Source: Pelagibacterium flavum (GTDB taxonomy: Bacteria; Pseudomonadota; Alphaproteobacteria; Rhizobiales; Devosiaceae). From it: a stretch of 64,000 nt of DNA. The stretch is taken from assembly GCF_025854335.1 (NCBI RefSeq), contig NZ_CP107716.1:1233001-1297000 (forward strand). The letters are read 5' to 3'. Numbering within the stretch: position 1 is the stretch's first letter; each line of letters begins with the position of its first letter. The notes beneath the pieces were generated by a model, which saw only the letters and a list, made by a program, of their open reading frames with translations, ran no database searches and was not told where the DNA came from. The position numbers were made by a program, and so were the translations under genes. Shown here in pieces: positions 1-6,110 of the stretch.

Positions 1-1
1 G

Positions 2-63
2 ATGAACGGCGAAGCAAGCTTCTTCCGATTGTGATAGTAAGCGAAGCCAGCTTCGCCGTTCAT
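2..63 (+). terminator. Long imperfect inverted repeat, terminator-like
   Basis: Arms 2-22 and 43-63 pair at 19 of 21 positions around a 20-base loop, and the right arm is followed within about 10 bases by a T-run (GGGGTTTTT, 67-75). This fits a transcription terminator for a plus-strand gene lying left of the window. It could instead be a copy of a dispersed palindrome. No second copy was noticed here. Confidence 0.45.
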
Positions 64-335
64 GACCGGGGTTTTTGGCTTAGTCGCCCTTCAGAAGGCT
101 AGGGTCAATCCCCTCTCCCTTTCGGGAGTACGACGGCGTTAGCAAAATCGCGCCAGCCTCAAAAGAGATCAGGCGGCCGGTTCACGCCGTCCGGCGCTTG
201 TGACGTTTGGGCCTTCCCCGCAGCGACCCGCGAGGAACCCGGACCAGGCTTGCCGAAAGCTCGTATGCATCCGCGCCCGATGCAAGCCCATGACGAGGAG
301 CCTAATGCGGGCGGGATGCGCGGGGATAAGTTTTA
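64..335. other. Gene-free stretch at the left edge
   Basis: I see no convincing gene here. Short ORFs on both strands lack ribosome binding sites and read as arginine- and proline-rich shadows. Together with the preceding hairpin it separates whatever lies left of the window from the minus-strand gene ending at 336. Confidence 0.5.
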
Positions 336-815
336 TCACCGGGCCGACGTGATCCATGGCTTTGTCCAGGCGGCCGGTTGCTGCGGCGGTTCGGTGGGCG
401 ATCGCCCGGCGCGCCGCCGGCTCATATTGGCCACGGTGGCGACGAGCATGGCGGCCATATCGCCGTTGGCGGCATCGAGCCGGCCCTTGAGGCTGCGGGG
501 ATCGGACTGGGGGAAGTCGTGTTCGAGCCCGAGGGTTTCAAAGCGGGCAGCGGCTTCGCCCAGAACCAGCAGAATGGTTGAAAACCTGACCGTCCCGTTC
601 GGCAGGGAAGGGACGGCGCGCTTGTGGCCGAGGCCGGTCGCAAAGCGCCGCAGATCGGTCAACAGGGCCCGGACCAGACGGGCGGTCTCGTCAGGCGCTT
701 CAAGGGTGGGGCGCGACCTGCCCTGCGCGGCCATGGCGCCCTGAACCGCCGTCAGCCGCGCCATCAACGCGGCAAAGGCTTCGGGGGCGGGTGTGGATGT
801 CTTGCGGCGGGGCAT
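336..815 (-). CDS. Hypothetical protein, 159 aa
   Basis: I do not recognise this protein. It starts at ATG 815 behind GGAGA with a 9-10 base gap, which supports real translation. The product is rich in alanine, leucine and arginine, and its middle part (about residues 35-125) looks helical, with a basic, proline-rich tail. No catalytic motif or membrane segment is visible. It is transcribed away from the retron-like cassette and shares the roughly 120-bp upstream region with that cassette's promoter side, so it may be a bystander or a passenger of the same accessory region. It is GC-rich, unlike the AT-richer genes at 1200-1880. Confidence 0.55.
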   Translation of the reverse strand: MPRRKTSTPAPEAFAALMARLTAVQGAMAAQGRSRPTLEAPDETARLVRALLTDLRRFATGLGHKRAVPSLPNGTVRFSTILLVLGEAAARFETLGLEHDFPQSDPRSLKGRLDAANGDMAAMLVATVANMSRRRAGRSPTEPPQQPAAWTKPWITSAR

Positions 816-937
816 GGGCTGGTCTCCGTGTCAGGTCTGGCTCCGGCGGGGCGGAGGGTGACAGGAGAGGATAGGGGAGGTGCGGGCGGCGGGGATAAAG
901 GACCAGGAATTAAAATCGCTAAGAGCGAACTTTAATC

Positions 938-966
938 TTGAAAAAACAAATTTTGCTCGCTATATG
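938..966 (+). promoter_or_regulatory. Sigma-70-type promoter of the retron-like cassette
   Basis: TTGAAA (938-943) and TATATG (961-966) are spaced by exactly 17 bases in an AT-rich island within GC-rich flanks. A transcript would begin near 972-975, just before the hairpin-rich leader. Both hexamers match the vegetative consensus well; function is inferred. Confidence 0.6.
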
Positions 967-969
967 TAT

Positions 970-1202
970 TCTCCGTCTAACGGAAGAACGTCGTTATCTG
1001 AAGGTCGGGCTCTATTATCCCGACCGTGGAGGGGTGACCCTCTATCACTTCCCCCAAGAGGCCCCGGTGGGACGGGGACCGACACGGGCGAAGCAGCCGC
1101 GATCAACGACTGATCGCGGCTAGAATGAAGGTGAAGTTGCTGTTTCCGACCTCTGTTTGAGACGACCCTAGAGGACTTCCCCTCTAGGCAAACAGAAGGA
1201 GA
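970..1202 (+). ncRNA. Hairpin-rich leader, candidate retron msr-msd RNA
   Basis: This non-coding stretch between a good promoter and the first ORF is packed with perfect stems: 1003-1009 with 1019-1025 (7 bp), 1029-1033 with 1038-1042 (5 bp), 1095-1105 with 1111-1121 (11 bp, 5-base loop), and a long final stem made of 1167-1174 with 1181-1188 (8 bp) extended by 1153-1159 with 1189-1195 (7 bp, one-sided bulge). The ends TCTCCGTCT (970-978) and AGAAGGAGA (1194-1202) can pair at 8 of 9 positions, like retron a1/a2 repeats, and this pairing would hide the ribosome binding site of the following ORF. Retrons encode msr-msd upstream of the reverse transcriptase, often before an accessory gene. I could not place the branching guanosine with confidence. 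It might instead be a structured leader that controls translation. Confidence 0.45.
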
Positions 1203-1207
1203 ACACC

Positions 1208-1369
1208 ATGAGTGTTTCTGAAGACCAACAGCAACGGCGGCGGTGGACGCGATGGTGCATCTGGCAACGGATGCGCAACCCCAAGGTCCTGACGACGATT
1301 ATCAGGGCAGCATACGCGCTCTATCGGCTTATTCGCTTTATCTTTGAGTGCTTCTGCACTGGGGGATAA
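1208..1369 (+). CDS. Small basic/hydrophobic protein, 53 aa, first gene of the retron-like cassette
   Basis: Starts at ATG 1208 behind a strong AAGGAG, 9 bases upstream. The N-terminal part is highly charged (three glutamines followed by RRR and several Trp/Arg), and residues 28-50 alternate hydrophobic and basic residues with three cysteines near the end, resembling a short amphipathic or membrane-active helix. I do not recognise a family. Its position between the structured leader and the HTH gene, in the same orientation, suggests it is a cassette component, possibly an effector or regulator peptide. This is inference from context. Base composition is AT-richer than the housekeeping genes. 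Confidence 0.55.
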   Translation: MSVSEDQQQRRRWTRWCIWQRMRNPKVLTTIIRAAYALYRLIRFIFECFCTGG

Positions 1370-1404
1370 ACCGCCAACCCAAATTCTATGAAAGGAAAGA
1401 GAAC

Positions 1405-1707
1405 ATGCTGCAGGAAGCATTACGGCTTATTCGAGTTTTTCACGATCTCAAACAGTTTGAGGTTGCCGAAAAGATCGGAGTATCTAAGTCTTATATTTCT
1501 GAACTCGAAAATGGATCGAAGGCGCCTAGCTTGGAGGTGCTCCAAAGGTATTCATCCGAGTTTGGCATTCCAGTGTCATCGCTAATGTTTTTCTCAGAGC
1601 AAATAGACGCTGCCAAGAGTGGTGAAAAGGTGCGAACAACTATTGCTTCTAAGGTGATAGACATCCTAAAATTCATCGAAAACAAGTCTAAGGCGGATGC
1701 TGCCTGA
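1405..1707 (+). CDS. XRE/Cro-C1-type HTH protein of the retron-like cassette
   Basis: A 100-residue protein; the start is ATG 1405 behind GGAAAG, 19 codons inside the longest open frame. A helix-turn-helix of the XRE type spans about residues 5-60, with the typical run KIGVSKSYISELENG, followed by PSLEVLQRYSSEFGIPVSSLMFF, which is usual for XRE regulators. The C-terminal 30 residues are helical and charged. The stop TGA (1705-1707) overlaps the next ATG by one base, so it is translationally coupled to the reverse-transcriptase fragment. Retrons with a small HTH partner form a recognised class (type VI in one published scheme, from memory). It may be the operon repressor, the effector, or both. 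AT-rich compared with the window, suggesting transfer. Confidence 0.8.
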   Translation: MLQEALRLIRVFHDLKQFEVAEKIGVSKSYISELENGSKAPSLEVLQRYSSEFGIPVSSLMFFSEQIDAAKSGEKVRTTIASKVIDILKFIENKSKADAA

Positions 1708-1877
1708 TGAGGCCTGGCCATCGGATTGTCGATAGCGCCCTGTACAAGGTGCGAACCCGCCGGCGGCTTGCTGAGTTACTTTTCACCGAAGTTGGATTTC
1801 TTGAAAGCCTTGAGAAAAACCAGCCTAAGTATGTGGTGAAGTACAAACCTAGGGTCCATACCCAATCAGTTTGTTGA
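1707..1877 (+). pseudogene. Reverse transcriptase N-terminal fragment (retron-like), interrupted by IS
   Basis: The ATG at 1707 overlaps the stop of the HTH gene. The first 49 codons (to 1852) read as the N-terminus of a small retron-type reverse transcriptase: 'DSALYKVRTRRRLAELL' corresponds to the '(S)PLY-(K/R)-RSKRKLAELL' opening of that family, followed by a 'NQPKYVVKYK' stretch that normally precedes the first RT block. The frame then enters the IS at 1853 and stops at 1875-1877. Removing the IS and one CTAG gives only about a dozen further codons before a stop in repeat DNA, so fingers, palm and the catalytic YADD motif are all missing. The gene is therefore dead, and not merely split. 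Identification rests on a short N-terminus only. Confidence 0.55.
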
Positions 1878-1928
1878 ATAGACGCTGCAAATCAGATTCT
1901 CTGGCTTTAGATGAGTTCGGAGGTATCG

Positions 1929-2354
1929 ATGAGCAGACTATTTTGGTTGAGTGATGCAGCTTGGGCGGCCATTGAGCCACATCTCCCCAAGAACCAGCCT
2001 GGAGCACGTCGAGTGGATGACCGGCGGGTAATTTCGGGGATCGTTCATATGCTCAAGTGCGGCGGACGCTGGGCTGATTGCCCTGCCGAGTATGGCCCCT
2101 CGACAACAGTCTACAATCGCTGGAACCGCTGGAGTCGCCGCGGCGTATGGGCACGCATTCTCGCGGCTCTGACCGAACAAGGCTGGATTGCGGAAACCGC
2201 CCAGATCGACAGCAGCTATATCAAAGCCCATCGCTGTGCAGGCGGGGGAAAAGGGGGGCGCGAACCAATGCCATTGGCATCTCGCGTGGTGGCCGGACCA
2301 CCAAGATCCATGCGCTCGTCGACGTTATCGGCAGACCGATCCGCCTCATCCTGA
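1929..2354 (+). CDS. IS5-family transposase, OrfA frame
   Basis: Encodes the N-terminal part of the transposase: a DUF4096-like helical region (LSDAAWAAIEPHLP near the start) and the first catalytic aspartate in 'QIDSSYIKAHR' (about residue 95). The start is ATG 1929 rather than the upstream ATG 1911. After about residue 107 the frame reads out of the family sequence, and the rest of the enzyme continues in the -1 frame. The slippery run AAAAGGGGGG at 2249-2258 is where ribosomes would shift. On its own OrfA is probably a DNA-binding inhibitor or half-enzyme, as in related elements. Confidence 0.85.
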   Translation: MSRLFWLSDAAWAAIEPHLPKNQPGARRVDDRRVISGIVHMLKCGGRWADCPAEYGPSTTVYNRWNRWSRRGVWARILAALTEQGWIAETAQIDSSYIKAHRCAGGGKGGREPMPLASRVVAGPPRSMRSSTLSADRSASS

Positions 2355-2683
2355 CGCCCGGCAATGCCTCGGACATGAAGGGGGCCGATCTGCTCATCGC
2401 CCACACGATGGGCATGAAGAGAGTTATTGCTGACCGCGGCTATGATGCCAACCGCCTTCGTTCCACTCTGCGCAACCAGAAGACAATCCCGGTCATCCCT
2501 GGCCGCAAGAACCGGAAGCGCAAAATCAAATACGACGAGAAACGCTACAAAGACCGCTGGCGTGTCGAGGCCATGTTCTGCCGGCTCAAGGATTTCCGCC
2601 GCGTTGCCACCCGATACGACAAGCTTGCCCGAAACTATCTATCTGCCGTCATGCTCGCAGCGGCAGTCGCATACTGGCTATGA
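2252..2683 (+). CDS. IS5-family transposase, OrfB frame (DDE domain)
   Basis: This -1 frame continues the transposase after the slippery run at 2249-2258. It carries the catalytic core: the second aspartate in 'ADRGYD', and the glutamate in 'RVEAMFCRLKDFRRVATRYD', with the conserved lysine/tyrosine spacing of the IS5 DDE signature (YREK-like). The frame is open from about 2078, but the part before 2252 does not match the family, so the functional product is the fusion OrfA-OrfB of about 250 residues. It ends 13 bases before the right end of the IS. Confidence 0.85.
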   Translation, partial: RGARTNAIGISRGGRTTKIHALVDVIGRPIRLILTPGNASDMKGADLLIAHTMGMKRVIADRGYDANRLRSTLRNQKTIPVIPGRKNRKRKIKYDEKRYKDRWRVEAMFCRLKDFRRVATRYDKLARNYLSAVMLAAAVAYWL

Positions 2684-2711
2684 ACGAGTCTCGACCCTAG
2701 TGAAAACCAAG

Positions 2712-2790
2712 GTGTATGTGCGGATGCCATTGGCTAGAGCGGCTGGGAGAAGCCGCTGGGTCCCGTGTCGAGCACGGGACAGCGATGGTG
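2712..2790. repeat. REP-like composite repeat, copy A (5' truncated)
   Basis: Matches the right two thirds of copies B and C: 'TGTGCGGATGCC' followed by the palindromic block GGGTCCCGTGTCGAGCACGG and AGCGATGG. The left hairpin seen in the other copies is missing; in its place is the junction with the IS target site. A deletion between repeats could have removed the rest of the reverse transcriptase gene. Confidence 0.7.
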
Positions 2791-2814
2791 GGGGACGAGA
2801 GGGTCGATACAATC

Positions 2815-2918
2815 GCCTTCGCTTCCCCGGCGAAAGCCGGGGTCCATGAGCGGATGCCGCGGGCGACGGGGGTTTTGGGAGGCTGCTGGGTCCCGTGTCG
2901 GGCACGGGACAGCGATGG
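2815..2918. repeat. REP-like composite repeat, copy B
   Basis: Full unit: a first hairpin (CCCCGGCGAAAGCCGGGG, 2825-2842), about 45 variable bases, then a second hairpin (TCCCGTG...CACGGGA, from 2891) and AGCGATGG. About 85 percent like copy C by eye. It lies just downstream of the GIY-YIG gene. Confidence 0.75.
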
Positions 2919-2956
2919 CGGGGTTGGCGCGGCGTGGGCGATGATTTTGAGCGGGG

Positions 2957-3253
2957 CTAGATCAGGGTTTCGGTGAGGTCGCGCCAGGTGGGGTTGGCGG
3001 TTTCGATCAACTGGATTTTCCAGGCGCGCTTCCACGCCTTGATGCGCTTTTCGCGGAGGTAGGCGCTGTCGAGGGTGGGGTGGGTTTCGTACCAGACCAG
3101 ACGGGCAATATCGTATTTGCGGGTGTGGCCGGGGACGGCTTTTGAGCGGTGGTCGTGGATGCGGCGGGCGAGGTCGTTGGTCATGCCGGTGTAGAGGGCG
3201 CCGTTCTGGTGCTTGGCGAGGATGTAGACGTAGTACTGGCGTTGTTCGTACAT
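2957..3253 (-). CDS. Stand-alone GIY-YIG nuclease-domain protein, 98 aa
   Basis: A single GIY-YIG fold covers nearly the whole protein: 'YYVYILAKHQNGALYTGMTN' supplies the GIY-equivalent (YVY) and YIG-equivalent (YTG) motifs, the arginines in 'DLARRIHDHR' include the catalytic arginine, and 'YLREKRIKAWKRAWKIQLIE' is the usual C-terminal helix. The family (UPF0213/YhbQ-like) is widespread; structure-specific DNA cleavage is assumed, and the physiological role is mostly unknown. The start is ATG 3253, where the domain begins; the open frame upstream runs through repeat DNA. It is bracketed by REP-like repeat copies B and C, an arrangement that suggests co-mobility or co-amplification with the repeats. 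Confidence 0.85.
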   Translation of the reverse strand: MYEQRQYYVYILAKHQNGALYTGMTNDLARRIHDHRSKAVPGHTRKYDIARLVWYETHPTLDSAYLREKRIKAWKRAWKIQLIETANPTWRDLTETLI

Positions 3254-3325
3254 CGCGTGTTTTCCCCCAAAGCGGAGTTGAGTTTGGGGCGGGGGCGCGG
3301 GGAGTGCAAGAGGGGCGGGTACGCT

Positions 3326-3427
3326 CCTTCGCTTCCCCGGTGAAAGCCGGGGTCCATGTGCGGTGCCGCTGGCGACAGGGGCTTGGGGAGGCTGCTGGGT
3401 CCCGTGTCGGAGCACGGGACAGCGATG
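3326..3427. repeat. REP-like composite repeat, copy C
   Basis: Same two-hairpin layout as copy B: CCCCGGTGAAAGCCGGGG at about 3335-3352 and TCCCGTG...CACGGGA from about 3399, then AGCGATGG. It lies upstream of the GIY-YIG gene and just beyond the 3' end of uvrB, where such repeats often sit. Confidence 0.75.
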
Positions 3428-3479
3428 GGGGTGGGGAGAGGCGGAGGTTCGCCGTAAATGACGGGAGCGGGCGCCGGGA

Positions 3480-6017
3480 TCAGCCGCCGGGGCCTTCGAG
3501 GGTATCCAACTCCATCTGCCGCAGCTTCTTGATTTCATCGCGGAGCTTGGCGGCTTTTTCGAATTCCAGATTGGTGGCGGCTTCGCGCATCTGGTGTTCG
3601 AGGTCCTTGATGACAGCGGCGAGATTGGCGCCCACCGGAACCGTGTCCTTGCCGTCCTTGCCCGGGCGGATTTTGACCGAGACGTGGTCGCGTTCGTAGA
3701 CGGAATCCACGATATCGTTGATGCGGGCCTTGACCGATTGCGGGGTGATGCCGTGTTCGGCGTTGTAGGCGAGCTGTTTTTCGCGGCGGCGGTTGGTTTC
3801 GGCGAGCGCGCGTTCCATGGAGCCGGTTTCGCGGTCGGCGTAGAGGATCACCTTGCCATCGACGTTGCGCGCGGCGCGGCCGATGGTCTGGATGAGTGAG
3901 GTTTCCGAGCGCAGGAAGCCTTCCTTGTCGGCATCGAGGATGGCGACGAGGCCGCATTCGGGGATGTCGAGGCCTTCGCGCAAGAGGTTGATGCCGACCA
4001 GCACGTCGAAATTGCCGAGGCGCAGATCGCGGATGATCTCGATGCGCTCGATGGTGTCGATGTCCGAATGCATGTAGCGCACGCGAATGCCCTGCTCGTG
4101 CAGGTATTCGGTGAGATCCTCGGCCATCTTCTTGGTGAGGACGGTGAGCAGGGTGCGGTAGCCCTTTTCGGTGGTCTTGCGGATTTCATCGACAACGTCG
4201 TCCACCTGAGTGGTGGCGGGGCGGGTTTCGACGACAGGGTCGATCAGGCCGGTGGGGCGGATGACCTGTTCGGCAAACACGCCGCCGGTCTGTTCGAGCT
4301 CCCACGCGCCGGGGGTGGCCGAGACATAGACCGTCTGCGGGCGCATGGCGTTCCATTCCTCAAACCGCAGGGGGCGGTTGTCCATGCAGGAGGGGAGGCG
4401 GAAGCCGTATTCGGCGAGGGTGGCCTTGCGGCGCAGATCGCCGCGATACATGGCGCCGAGCTGGCCGATGGTGACGTGGGATTCGTCGACGAAGACCAGG
4501 GCGTTGTCGGGGAGATATTCGAACAGCGTGGGGGGCGGCTCGCCGGGCTTGCGGCCCGAGAAGTAGCGCGAATAGTTCTCGATCCCCGCGCAGGAGCCGG
4601 TGGCCTCCATCATTTCGAGATCGAACAGGGTGCGCTGTTCGAGGCGCTGGGCCTCGAGGAACCGGCCCATGCCGTTGAGCTCCTGCAGGCGGGCGTTGAG
4701 CTCGCGCTTGATCTCCTTGATGGCCGCATTCATCGTGGTGCGGGTGGTGACGTGGTGGGAATTGGCGAAGACGCGCACGGCGGTCAATTCGGCCGATTTC
4801 TTGCCGGTCAGGGGATCGAATTCGGCGATGGATTCGATTTCGTCGCCGAACAGGGTGATGCGCCAGGCGGCGTCGTCATAGTGGGCTGGGAACACTTCGA
4901 TGGTGTCGCCGCGCACCCGGAAGGTGCCGCGCACGAAGCCGATGTCGCCGCGCTTGTATTGCAGGGCGACGAGTTCGTTGAGTAACGCGCGCTGGTCGAT
5001 CTTCTGGCCCTTTTCGAGCCAGATGGTCATGGTGGTGTAGTCTTCCACCGAGCCGATGCCGTAGATGCAGGAGACCGAGGCGACGATGATGACGTCGTCG
5101 CGCTCGAGGATCGCGCGGGTGGCCGAGTGGCGCATCCGGTCGATCTGCTCGTTGATGGTGGATTCCTTTTCGATATAGGTATCGGTGCGCGGGACGTAGG
5201 CCTCGGGCTGGTAGTAGTCGTAATAGGAAACGAAGTATTCGACCGCGTTGTCGGGGAAGAAGTTCTTGAACTCGCCATAGAGCTGGGCGGCCAGGGTCTT
5301 GTTGGGCGCGAGGATGAGGGCCGGGCGTCCGGTCTGGGCGATCACCTGGGCGGCGGTAAACGTCTTGCCCGAGCCGGTGACGCCGAGCAGGACCTGATCG
5401 GTCTCGCCATTGGTGATGCCGTCGATGAGTTCGGCGATCGCGGTGGGCTGGTCGCCGGCGGGGACGTAATCGGTCTGCAGGCGGAAGGGGATGCCGCCCT
5501 TGTCCTTTTTGAGCGCAGCCGGGCGGTGGGGCCGCCAGGCATTGGTGCCCTCGACCTCCTTGCGGCCCTCGGCGATGATCTTTTCGAGCGCGGCGACGGT
5601 GGCCGAAACGCCGGCCGAGGAATTGGTCACATCGGTGGGCGCGTGGAAACCGGCCTGCGGGGCTTCGGCGAAGCCATCGAGATTGGTGGGGCGCTCGACG
5701 GAGTTGGCCTTGGATTTTGGGGCCTTGAGCGACATGCCCGTGGCTTCACTGCGTTTGCCCTTGGCGGCACTGGCCTTGCGGGCGTTGGCTTTCGCGTTGT
5801 CCTTGCCCTTGCCGGCGAGGCGCTCGGTTTCCTGGGCTTCGGCGGCTGCTTTTTGGTCCGCGCGGTCCAGCGCGCGCTTGTTGCGCATGCGCTCGGCGTA
5901 AAGCGGCTTTGAGGCCTGAGCGTCCTCGGCCTTTTCGATTTCCTTGATGAAATCGTCGATGGAAAAGTCGGCTTTACCGGGGCGACCGGCGGACGGGGAT
6001 TTTTTATCGGAGGTCAT
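3480..6017 (-). CDS. uvrB: Excinuclease ABC subunit UvrB
   Basis: UvrB verifies DNA damage handed over by UvrA and recruits UvrC for dual incision in nucleotide excision repair. Visible marks are Walker A GVTGSGKT (about residue 208), the beta-hairpin '[16 protein letters not shown]' that inserts between strands, the helicase box 'FVDESH', motif V/VI '[10 protein letters not shown]' and 'TIGRAARN', and a C-terminal UVR motif ('[13 protein letters not shown]'). I take ATG 6017, giving 845 residues; the conserved core starts only near residue 178, so the protein has a long lysine/alanine-rich N-terminal extension compared with the ~670-residue enterobacterial enzyme. Such extensions are common in Rhizobiales. 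The SD before 6017 is weak. Confidence 0.97.
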
Positions 6018-6072
6018 GGAGCACCATATCGGGCCGCAGGTGGACTGAATCAATAGATTGGGGTCGCGCAGT

Positions 6073-6110
6073 CGAACCGAAAAAGTCTGCAACTTTTTCT
6101 GACTGCACTC
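6073..6110. repeat. Dispersed palindromic intergenic repeat (copy 1)
   Basis: CGAACCGAAAAAGT...ACTTTTTCTGACTGCACTC: the AAAAAGT and ACTTTTT arms flank a few bases and the unit ends in GCACTC. The same layout recurs near 34956, 31752, 50083 and 54945. It lies upstream of uvrB. Confidence 0.6.

Follow-up and report, generated by a model that had tools for sequence, protein, structure and literature searches.

The window analysed here is a stretch of 64,000 nucleotides from Pelagibacterium flavum (contig NZ_CP107716.1, positions 1,233,001 to 1,297,000), and at positions 899 to 2700 of its plus strand it carries a cassette that, judged by its gene order and its closest relatives, is almost certainly a type VI retron inactivated by loss of its reverse transcriptase (RT) gene. 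The cassette as present begins where DNA similarity to retron-free relatives of the genus stops (898/899 in blastn comparisons). Within it, in order, are a palindrome (911 to 933, unstranded), a promoter with a −35 box TTGAAA (938 to 943), a 17-bp spacer and a −10 box TATATG (961 to 966), a structured noncoding RNA (ncRNA) leader (985 to 1172), the open reading frame (ORF) of a 53-residue basic amphipathic peptide (1208 to 1369), the gene of a 100-residue XRE/Cro-type helix-turn-helix (HTH) protein (1405 to 1707), and the 5′ remnant of an RT gene (1707 to 1851), which runs into an insertion sequence (IS; 1852 to 2697). All of the transcribed features lie on the plus strand; the promoter was read from the sequence, and its place relative to the palindrome is conserved. 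An earlier note on this DNA had listed the promoter with its 17-bp spacing, the hairpin-dense leader, the 53-codon ORF and the XRE HTH gene overlapping the next ORF by one base, and had compared the layout to retrons with an HTH accessory gene. These elements were all found in place, both ORFs being open, and the layout can now be assigned to type VI.

Among the PADLOC models, the HTH protein was best matched by HTH_VI (PDLC02926, E 1.9e-35; alignment A4), the second-ranked model reaching only 3.7e-9. The RT ORF starts at 1707 with a one-base overlap, immediately 3′ of this gene, continues in an open frame into the IS and ends at 1877. With a cut-off of E 1, its only PADLOC match was RT_VI (E 0.031, profile positions 1 to 34). 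Because such a match is weak alone, the proof comes from genomes of the same species (locus L001, genome G119) and the same genus (L002, G127), in which the locus is free of the IS and an open 308-residue RT with QGSP and YADD motifs starts at the position of 1707. The possibility that this ORF continues in relatives without RT motifs, which the earlier note had named as a test of its idea, can thus be set aside. RT_VI was the best PADLOC model for both proteins (E 5.1e-87 in L002 and 2.7e-85 in L001), followed by RT_III-A (8.8e-38 and 1.7e-36, respectively). In the search of 136 genomes of the family, HTH_VI scored 118.2 bits equally in the window, L001 and L002; at E 0.001 this model was useless as a marker, being positive in 136 of 136 genomes and in all 14 controls, and later HTH searches used a threshold of E 1e-18. 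A further locus, L031 (DFMV01000079.1, Rhizobiales bacterium UBA3584), is very probably the same as L001, the proteins being identical.

Positions 1 to 1851 of the window differ from L001 by a single mismatch, at position 974, and the loss of the RT is considered recent because this is the only change in 1,851 bp. Position 974, just past the −10 box and near the expected transcription start, is C in the window and G in both L001 and L002; it is possible that this change helps the strain to tolerate the loss. Residue 130 of the L001 RT is L, which turns FFPS into FLPS; the second F of this motif is conserved in at least 90% of 24 aligned RTs, and the FLPS variant also occurs in P0001.

The element that interrupts the RT gene belongs to the IS5 family and is 846 bp long, with its transposase in overlapping frames (1911 to 2354 and 2078 to 2683, plus strand). 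NF033580 (transpos_IS5_3) matches across both frames, both ends begin with GGGTC, and the target is TA within CTAR. The window genome holds seven copies, including this one, at ~100% identity, and all seven have CTA at the left and TAG or TAA at the right; the duplicated target is therefore TA inside CTAR, and not CTAG as had been proposed. In its transposase match, its CTAR target and its TA duplication the element resembles the rest of the transpos_IS5_3 group, and it is ordinary apart from having removed the RT here. Comparison with L001 and L002 places the TA of the left junction (1850 to 1851, unstranded) in a CTAA within the RT gene and that of the right junction (2698 to 2699, unstranded) in a CTAG ~70 bp past the RT stop, the two TAs being separated by 850 bp in these loci. 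The two IS flanks are not one split target site. In the window, the 850 bp, comprising RT codons 49 to 308 and bases beyond, are replaced by the 846-bp IS. Two mechanisms would give this outcome, and both fit: (i) insertion of two IS copies that then recombined with each other or (ii) an IS-adjacent deletion into a second target.

The claims that the RT is cut by an IS and does not resume beyond it, and that insertion and deletion both contributed, are thus borne out, with the refinement that the loss spans two distinct IS target sites. The 49 RT codons that had been counted are an RT N-terminus as proposed, but only 48 of them are whole (1707 to 1850), followed by one base; codon 49 is a hybrid with the IS. 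With codons 49 to 308 gone, what the window genome retains is a remnant and not a working retron. Relocation of the missing part within the genome was considered and rejected, since a profile search at E 0.001 gave no RT_VI match anywhere in the window genome.

Relatives of the cassette were collected by their RT. A genome scan gave 79 loci, of which the 26 with E ≤1e-38 (L031 to L054, L072 and L109) were taken as the clade, the remaining 53 (E 8e-24 or worse) being left out of the count; a scan of viral contigs gave 15 loci, of which five with E ≤1e-89 (L110 to L114) were taken. The L002 RT alone found no relative among the viral contigs, whereas an RT alignment used as query did recover them. 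Three of these 31 RT-selected loci (L052, L054 and L110) are cut on the 5′ side of the RT, leaving 28 that are testable. In the protein database, the RT had 705 relatives at E 0.001, and relatives in 25 phage and 171 plasmid records were all below 60% identity. Two viral RTs, ~32% identical to the query RT (L115 and L116), have a short membrane-type ORF but lack an HTH gene immediately upstream. A distant type VI subclade (L004, L005, L006 and L161) has RTs of ~340 to 350 residues with WVDD, the start in L004 being uncertain; by eye, this subclade carries an arginine-rich peptide of its own.

All 28 testable loci (among them the near-duplicate pairs L111/L112 and L040/L114), like the window, carry upstream of the HTH gene a short ORF whose first half is basic, and the pairing of HTH gene and small ORF, of which the earlier note had asked whether it ever occurs beside RTs, is thus found beside an RT in each of them. 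The two genes were rightly described as still open in the window. Rather than a by-product, the small ORF seems to be a core component of the system. Aligned peptides from 27 loci, including the window and L002 and omitting L031, L112 and L114 (alignment A2), have in common an arginine-rich beginning together with a W..LRNP-like turn and an amphipathic helix containing Y-R-x-x-R; their net charge is +5 to +16 and their best hydrophobic moment 0.47 to 0.77. For the window peptide, AlphaFold2 predicted a helix at residues 25 to 51, with a predicted local distance difference test (pLDDT) score of 85 to 90 in its core and a mean of 69.9. The ratio of nonsynonymous to synonymous change (dN/dS) is defined for 12 of 14 pairs and was 0.00 to 0.56 in these 12. 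When a profile built from 19 peptides was run against 2,485 reading frames from 27 other loci, the first 14 places were taken by the ORF upstream of the HTH gene (E 2.4e-10 to 0.065), the first wrong frame following at E 0.095. The peptide matched no PADLOC model. It had 52 matches in the protein database at E 0.01, the window's own included, and none of these carries a name that states a function, although one source labels P0147 as uncharacterized protein YpuA, DUF1002 family. The disparity between 52 peptides and 705 RTs is only a hint, since short genes are often unannotated and a short query is less sensitive.

Typical of an msr-msd region is a pair of short hairpins combined with an outer helix and a GC-rich stem. 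The leader of the window has an outer helix between 989 to 995 and 1161 to 1166 (a1/a2-like), hairpins at 1003 to 1025, 1030 to 1041 and 1095 to 1121, and a GC-rich stem between them. Leaders from 24 of 30 loci make up alignment A3, which omits the near-duplicates L031, L112 and L114 as well as L046, L049 and L050. RNAalifold predicted 34 pairs, 30 of which are changed on both sides in at least one sequence. Over 790 cells, 95.3% were paired, compared with 74.7% in shuffles, and the covariation score was 0.609, compared with 0.222 when shuffled and 0.084 to 0.140 when the partner was slid by 1 to 3 columns. None of 500 shuffles attained any of the five measures, in a test on the same alignment from which the structure came, which favours the structure. 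Shortly 5′ of the ribosome-binding site of the peptide, a further hairpin (helix 5, 1167 to 1188, plus strand) has five of its six pairs changed on both sides. The 24 leaders thus hold a structured ncRNA with an outer helix 5′ of the genes, as in type VI retrons, and its covariation and layout make it likely to be the msr-msd. An Rfam scan of window positions 1 to 6000 found no retron family and one chance match to a long noncoding RNA (E 0.86). A repeat of the operator in the msd stem was considered, by eye only, and dropped.

The palindrome, TAAAATCGCT-AAG-AGCGAACTTT in the window, corresponds to a consensus AAGTTCGCT-NNN-AGCGAACTT that lies directly 5′ of the −35 box in alignment A3, and it is the best match of its 7-kb stretch. 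The 15-base core of the palindrome was scored in the window, in L002, in 27 RT-selected loci (skipping the near-duplicate L112) and in the viral loci L151 and L175, 31 in all; the last two were added since the site had already been seen there. In the first 29 of these, the core has no mismatch in 13, one in 11, two in three and three in two; in 27, no other site of the stretch matches as well, and in 28 it lies 6 to 9 bases ahead of TTG. These counts are descriptive and no independent test, because 23 of the 29 loci also stand in the alignment that revealed the consensus and several are near-duplicates. L049 and L151 have the same exchange in both arms (GTCGCT/AGCGAC), as expected of a dimer site. 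Other palindromes before a TTGAC- or TTGCG-like box were noticed by eye in L004, L005 and L161. Near-palindromes in the window genome were no more frequent than matches of a control pattern (11 versus 11); a genome-wide HTH regulon was rejected on these counts, and control by the HTH protein would be local. The palindrome is a likely operator of the HTH protein in this clade, and the protein itself is probably an autoregulator, a view we hold with slightly less confidence than before now that distant loci lacking this palindrome are taken into account.

In known retrons, according to the parts of the literature consulted, the RT together with the ncRNA and multicopy single-stranded DNA (msDNA) forms a sensor that keeps a toxic effector in check until a phage infects the cell (PMC12548924, PMC13405049, PMC8867640). 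The explanation that we consider quite probable for the present locus is that of a recently inactivated type VI retron, for which we propose a peptide-armed, HTH-repressed operon. In intact relatives, one promoter drives a transcript that begins with the structured ncRNA and continues through the peptide, HTH and RT genes. Comparison of sequences establishes this layout, the covariation of the RNA, the conservation of the palindrome in this clade, the peptide family and the exchange of RT codons 49 to 308 for an IS between two CTAR sites. The HTH protein would bind the promoter palindrome and keep expression of the operon low. By analogy with known retrons, the RT would copy part of the ncRNA into msDNA, and the complex of RT, RNA and msDNA would serve as the phage sensor that controls the toxic effector. 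The proposed effector is the basic amphipathic peptide: its helix would damage the membrane, and until infection it would be tethered to the ncRNA or msDNA by its arginine-rich N-terminus. In the window strain the locus cannot make msDNA, so that its defence is lost; the HTH and peptide genes could persist after RT loss either because HTH repression suffices or because the peptide requires the RT to act. Its presence in every testable locus, its fast evolution and its basic, amphipathic character make the peptide our leading candidate for the type VI effector in this clade, and we put the chance that it is the effector a little short of even.

The most serious alternative, which we nevertheless regard as rather unlikely, assigns the role of effector or toxin-regulator to the HTH protein and an accessory role to the peptide, for example that of a nucleic-acid chaperone acting on ncRNA or msDNA through its arginine-rich N-terminus. 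It is in line with the PADLOC type models that were matched, RT_VI and HTH_VI, the peptide having none, and the arginine runs and charges of the 27 peptides would suit binding to RNA or DNA; a winged-helix protein is, moreover, described as binding msDNA inside a type IX retron complex in the portion of PMC13405049 consulted. However, the HTH protein is a plain XRE-type domain of 100 residues with no match to a catalytic domain, a fitting palindrome lies at the promoter, and the conserved amphipathic helix of the peptide exceeds what a basic tail would need.

So as not to select on the RT, loci were also collected by their HTH protein. An HTH alignment was searched at E 1e-18 (up to 12 candidates scored per genome) against genomes of the order (397) and the class (385), which gave 8 and 5 genomes, or 12 distinct ones including the window's own; one of them, L142, leaves the locus inside the RT and is not evaluable, leaving 11. 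The RT is full-length in eight (L136, L138, L139, L140, L141, L178, L179 and L180), and the palindrome recurs with at most one mismatch in L136, L138, L139 and L140, the first two of which resemble L034 and L045. In the other three, the window, L143 and L177, the RT is broken. The L143 RT has one frameshift, possibly a sequencing error, and that of L177 a frame-shifting duplication in a single-contig genome. Against viral contigs, the same HTH alignment found 33 loci, of which 24, many of them near-duplicates, have an RT behind the HTH gene and 23 of these 24 a short ORF before it. Nine viral loci have no whole RT: L176 holds decayed RT pieces, and the other eight have neither RT nor palindrome. 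In the viral loci L147 to L150, L152 and L153, the HTH protein shares its N-terminus with HTH_VI and no RT or such palindrome adjoins; some of them have short hydrophobic ORFs upstream.

A toxin restrained by the RT alone is made less likely by the broken alleles in which the peptide is open, and these alleles bear on two further alternatives. The first, somewhat less likely again than an HTH effector, is that the peptide is active only together with the RT and msDNA, for example when delivered or folded by the complex, so that RT loss disarms it. It accounts for three RT-broken alleles in three families in which peptide and HTH protein are open, and for a window peptide and HTH protein unchanged relative to L001; HTH repression, however, accounts for all of this as well, the window allele has had too little time to be informative (one change in 1,851 bp), and L143 may be a sequencing error. 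The second, which we hold improbable, is that the HTH protein and the peptide are kept after RT loss for a function of their own, as a two-gene regulatory or toxin-antitoxin module. It agrees with the broken RT and open peptide seen in 3 of the 11 evaluable genomes, counting the window, but all three alleles are possibly young, the window's having had barely time to decay, and among the HTH-selected and viral loci inspected there is no long-established RT-free pair with peptide and palindrome. That the locus is not a retron at all but another defence system in which an RT of the abortive infection (Abi) or defence-associated RT (DRT) type is joined by an HTH regulator is very improbable and was rejected on the PADLOC model scores: the leader matches no Rfam retron family and its msDNA is argued by analogy, yet for L002 the E-value of RT_VI is 49 orders of magnitude better than that of the next RT model, and the hairpins and outer helix of the leader are arranged as in an msr-msd.

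Returning to the peptide-armed, HTH-repressed retron, several observations weigh against it. The RT is broken while the HTH gene and a peptide-like ORF are open in 3 of the 11 evaluable genomes, or 2 of 10 without the window, whose allele was known to be broken beforehand. The profile missed the peptide, at the level of the first wrong frame (E 0.095), in 13 of the 27 held-out loci (L005, L049, L115, L141, L143, L151, L154, L161, L162, L173, L175, L178 and L180); a short ORF of similar build is visible by eye in most of these, so that the family either diverges past recognition or has been replaced by look-alikes. The short ORF of P2-like viral loci has little basic character (net charge 0 to +5, with the upstream start used), and one RT-bearing viral locus, L173, has no such peptide. 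The palindrome is present with at most two mismatches in 8 of the 24 RT-bearing viral loci and was not found in the other 16 (L154 to L161, L165 to L171 and L173), its outer left arm is off consensus in the window, L001/L031 and L002, and its conserved place and palindromy fall short of proving that the HTH protein binds it. Extended to type VI retrons as a whole, the proposal is that they are armed with a peptide of ~45 to 60 residues, fast-diverging, arginine-rich in this clade, encoded between the ncRNA and the HTH gene and easily missed by gene callers, that repression of the operon by the HTH protein acts at a palindrome differing with the HTH clade, and that RT loss is thereby survivable. 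We hold this general proposal only tentatively, as the less probable side of the question, and marginally more so because of the loci in which the profile or the palindrome was not found.

Retron types, including type VI, are reportedly defined by Mestre et al. 2020; the association of a small ORF with type VI may already be contained there, and no priority is claimed for it. The locus belongs to this known kind: it shares with type VI retrons (PADLOC RT_VI and HTH_VI) the same protein families, an HTH gene before and overlapping or adjoining the RT gene, a small upstream ORF and a structured leader. It differs in that the RT is lost in the window; the peptide family, the operator and the covarying ncRNA are described in this analysis. 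Among the titles and opening lines of abstracts that made up most of the literature searched, no established effector of type VI retrons was found, and the parts of PMC8934634 and PMC12948488 that were consulted contain nothing on type VI retrons. The consulted part of PMC8541194 compares a phage element with a type VI retron and mentions small auxiliary proteins. In the retroelements of Shewanella prophage MuM16-1, Klebsiella phage ST147-VIM1phi7.1 and Peduovirus P22H1 described there, the HTH gene likewise overlaps the RT gene behind a short upstream ORF, and one short ORF of this group has a predicted membrane segment. Their RTs are only 31 to 35% identical to that of L002, and an operator or ncRNA is absent from that part of the description. 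The type IX retron Kva2 (HEPN and winged helix) also has a small DNA-binding protein beside RT and ncRNA; according to the portion of PMC13405049 consulted, its effector is a HEPN RNase and its winged helix sits on msDNA, whereas for the type VI HTH protein considered here a DNA operator is likely.

The cassette lies between a small gene (336 to 815, minus strand) and uvrB (3480 to 6092), named from its translation. In blastn comparisons with eight retron-free relatives of the genus, similarity ends at 898 to 899 in seven, with no match there in one. Six of these relatives (L207 to L212) resume similarity at 3477 to 3484, and other genes fill the interval: DzbA (E 4.9e-53) and DzbB (6.1e-7) of the Dazbog system in L207, AAA ATPase matches (7.6e-10) in L208, PDC-S60 (1.5e-67) in L209, AriA (1.7e-31) in L210, and NsnA (9.2e-23) with the FRG-domain PDC-S15 (7e-8) in L212. 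One of the three ORFs in the L211 interval was scanned and gave no match. Since five of the six relatives have a defence-type match, the interval 899 to 3476 is a defence hotspot in the genus. From 61% across the window, G+C content drops to 44% in the HTH gene and to 32% in the promoter stretch, in keeping with acquired DNA. Positions 2744 to 2923 and 3324 to 3441 are diverged repeats of an element found at many places in genomes of the genus.

For type VI retrons, the conserved peptide, the likely operator and the covarying RNA are concrete items that can be put to the test, and the natural alleles in which the RT is broken and the peptide is open constrain how any toxin of these systems is restrained. 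In P. flavum, the loss of a defence cassette has been caught within one species, since a genome of the same species carries the cassette without the IS and the IS itself is still present in seven near-identical copies. If the proposed reading is true, repression of the operon by the HTH protein would let strains drop the RT without being killed by the peptide.

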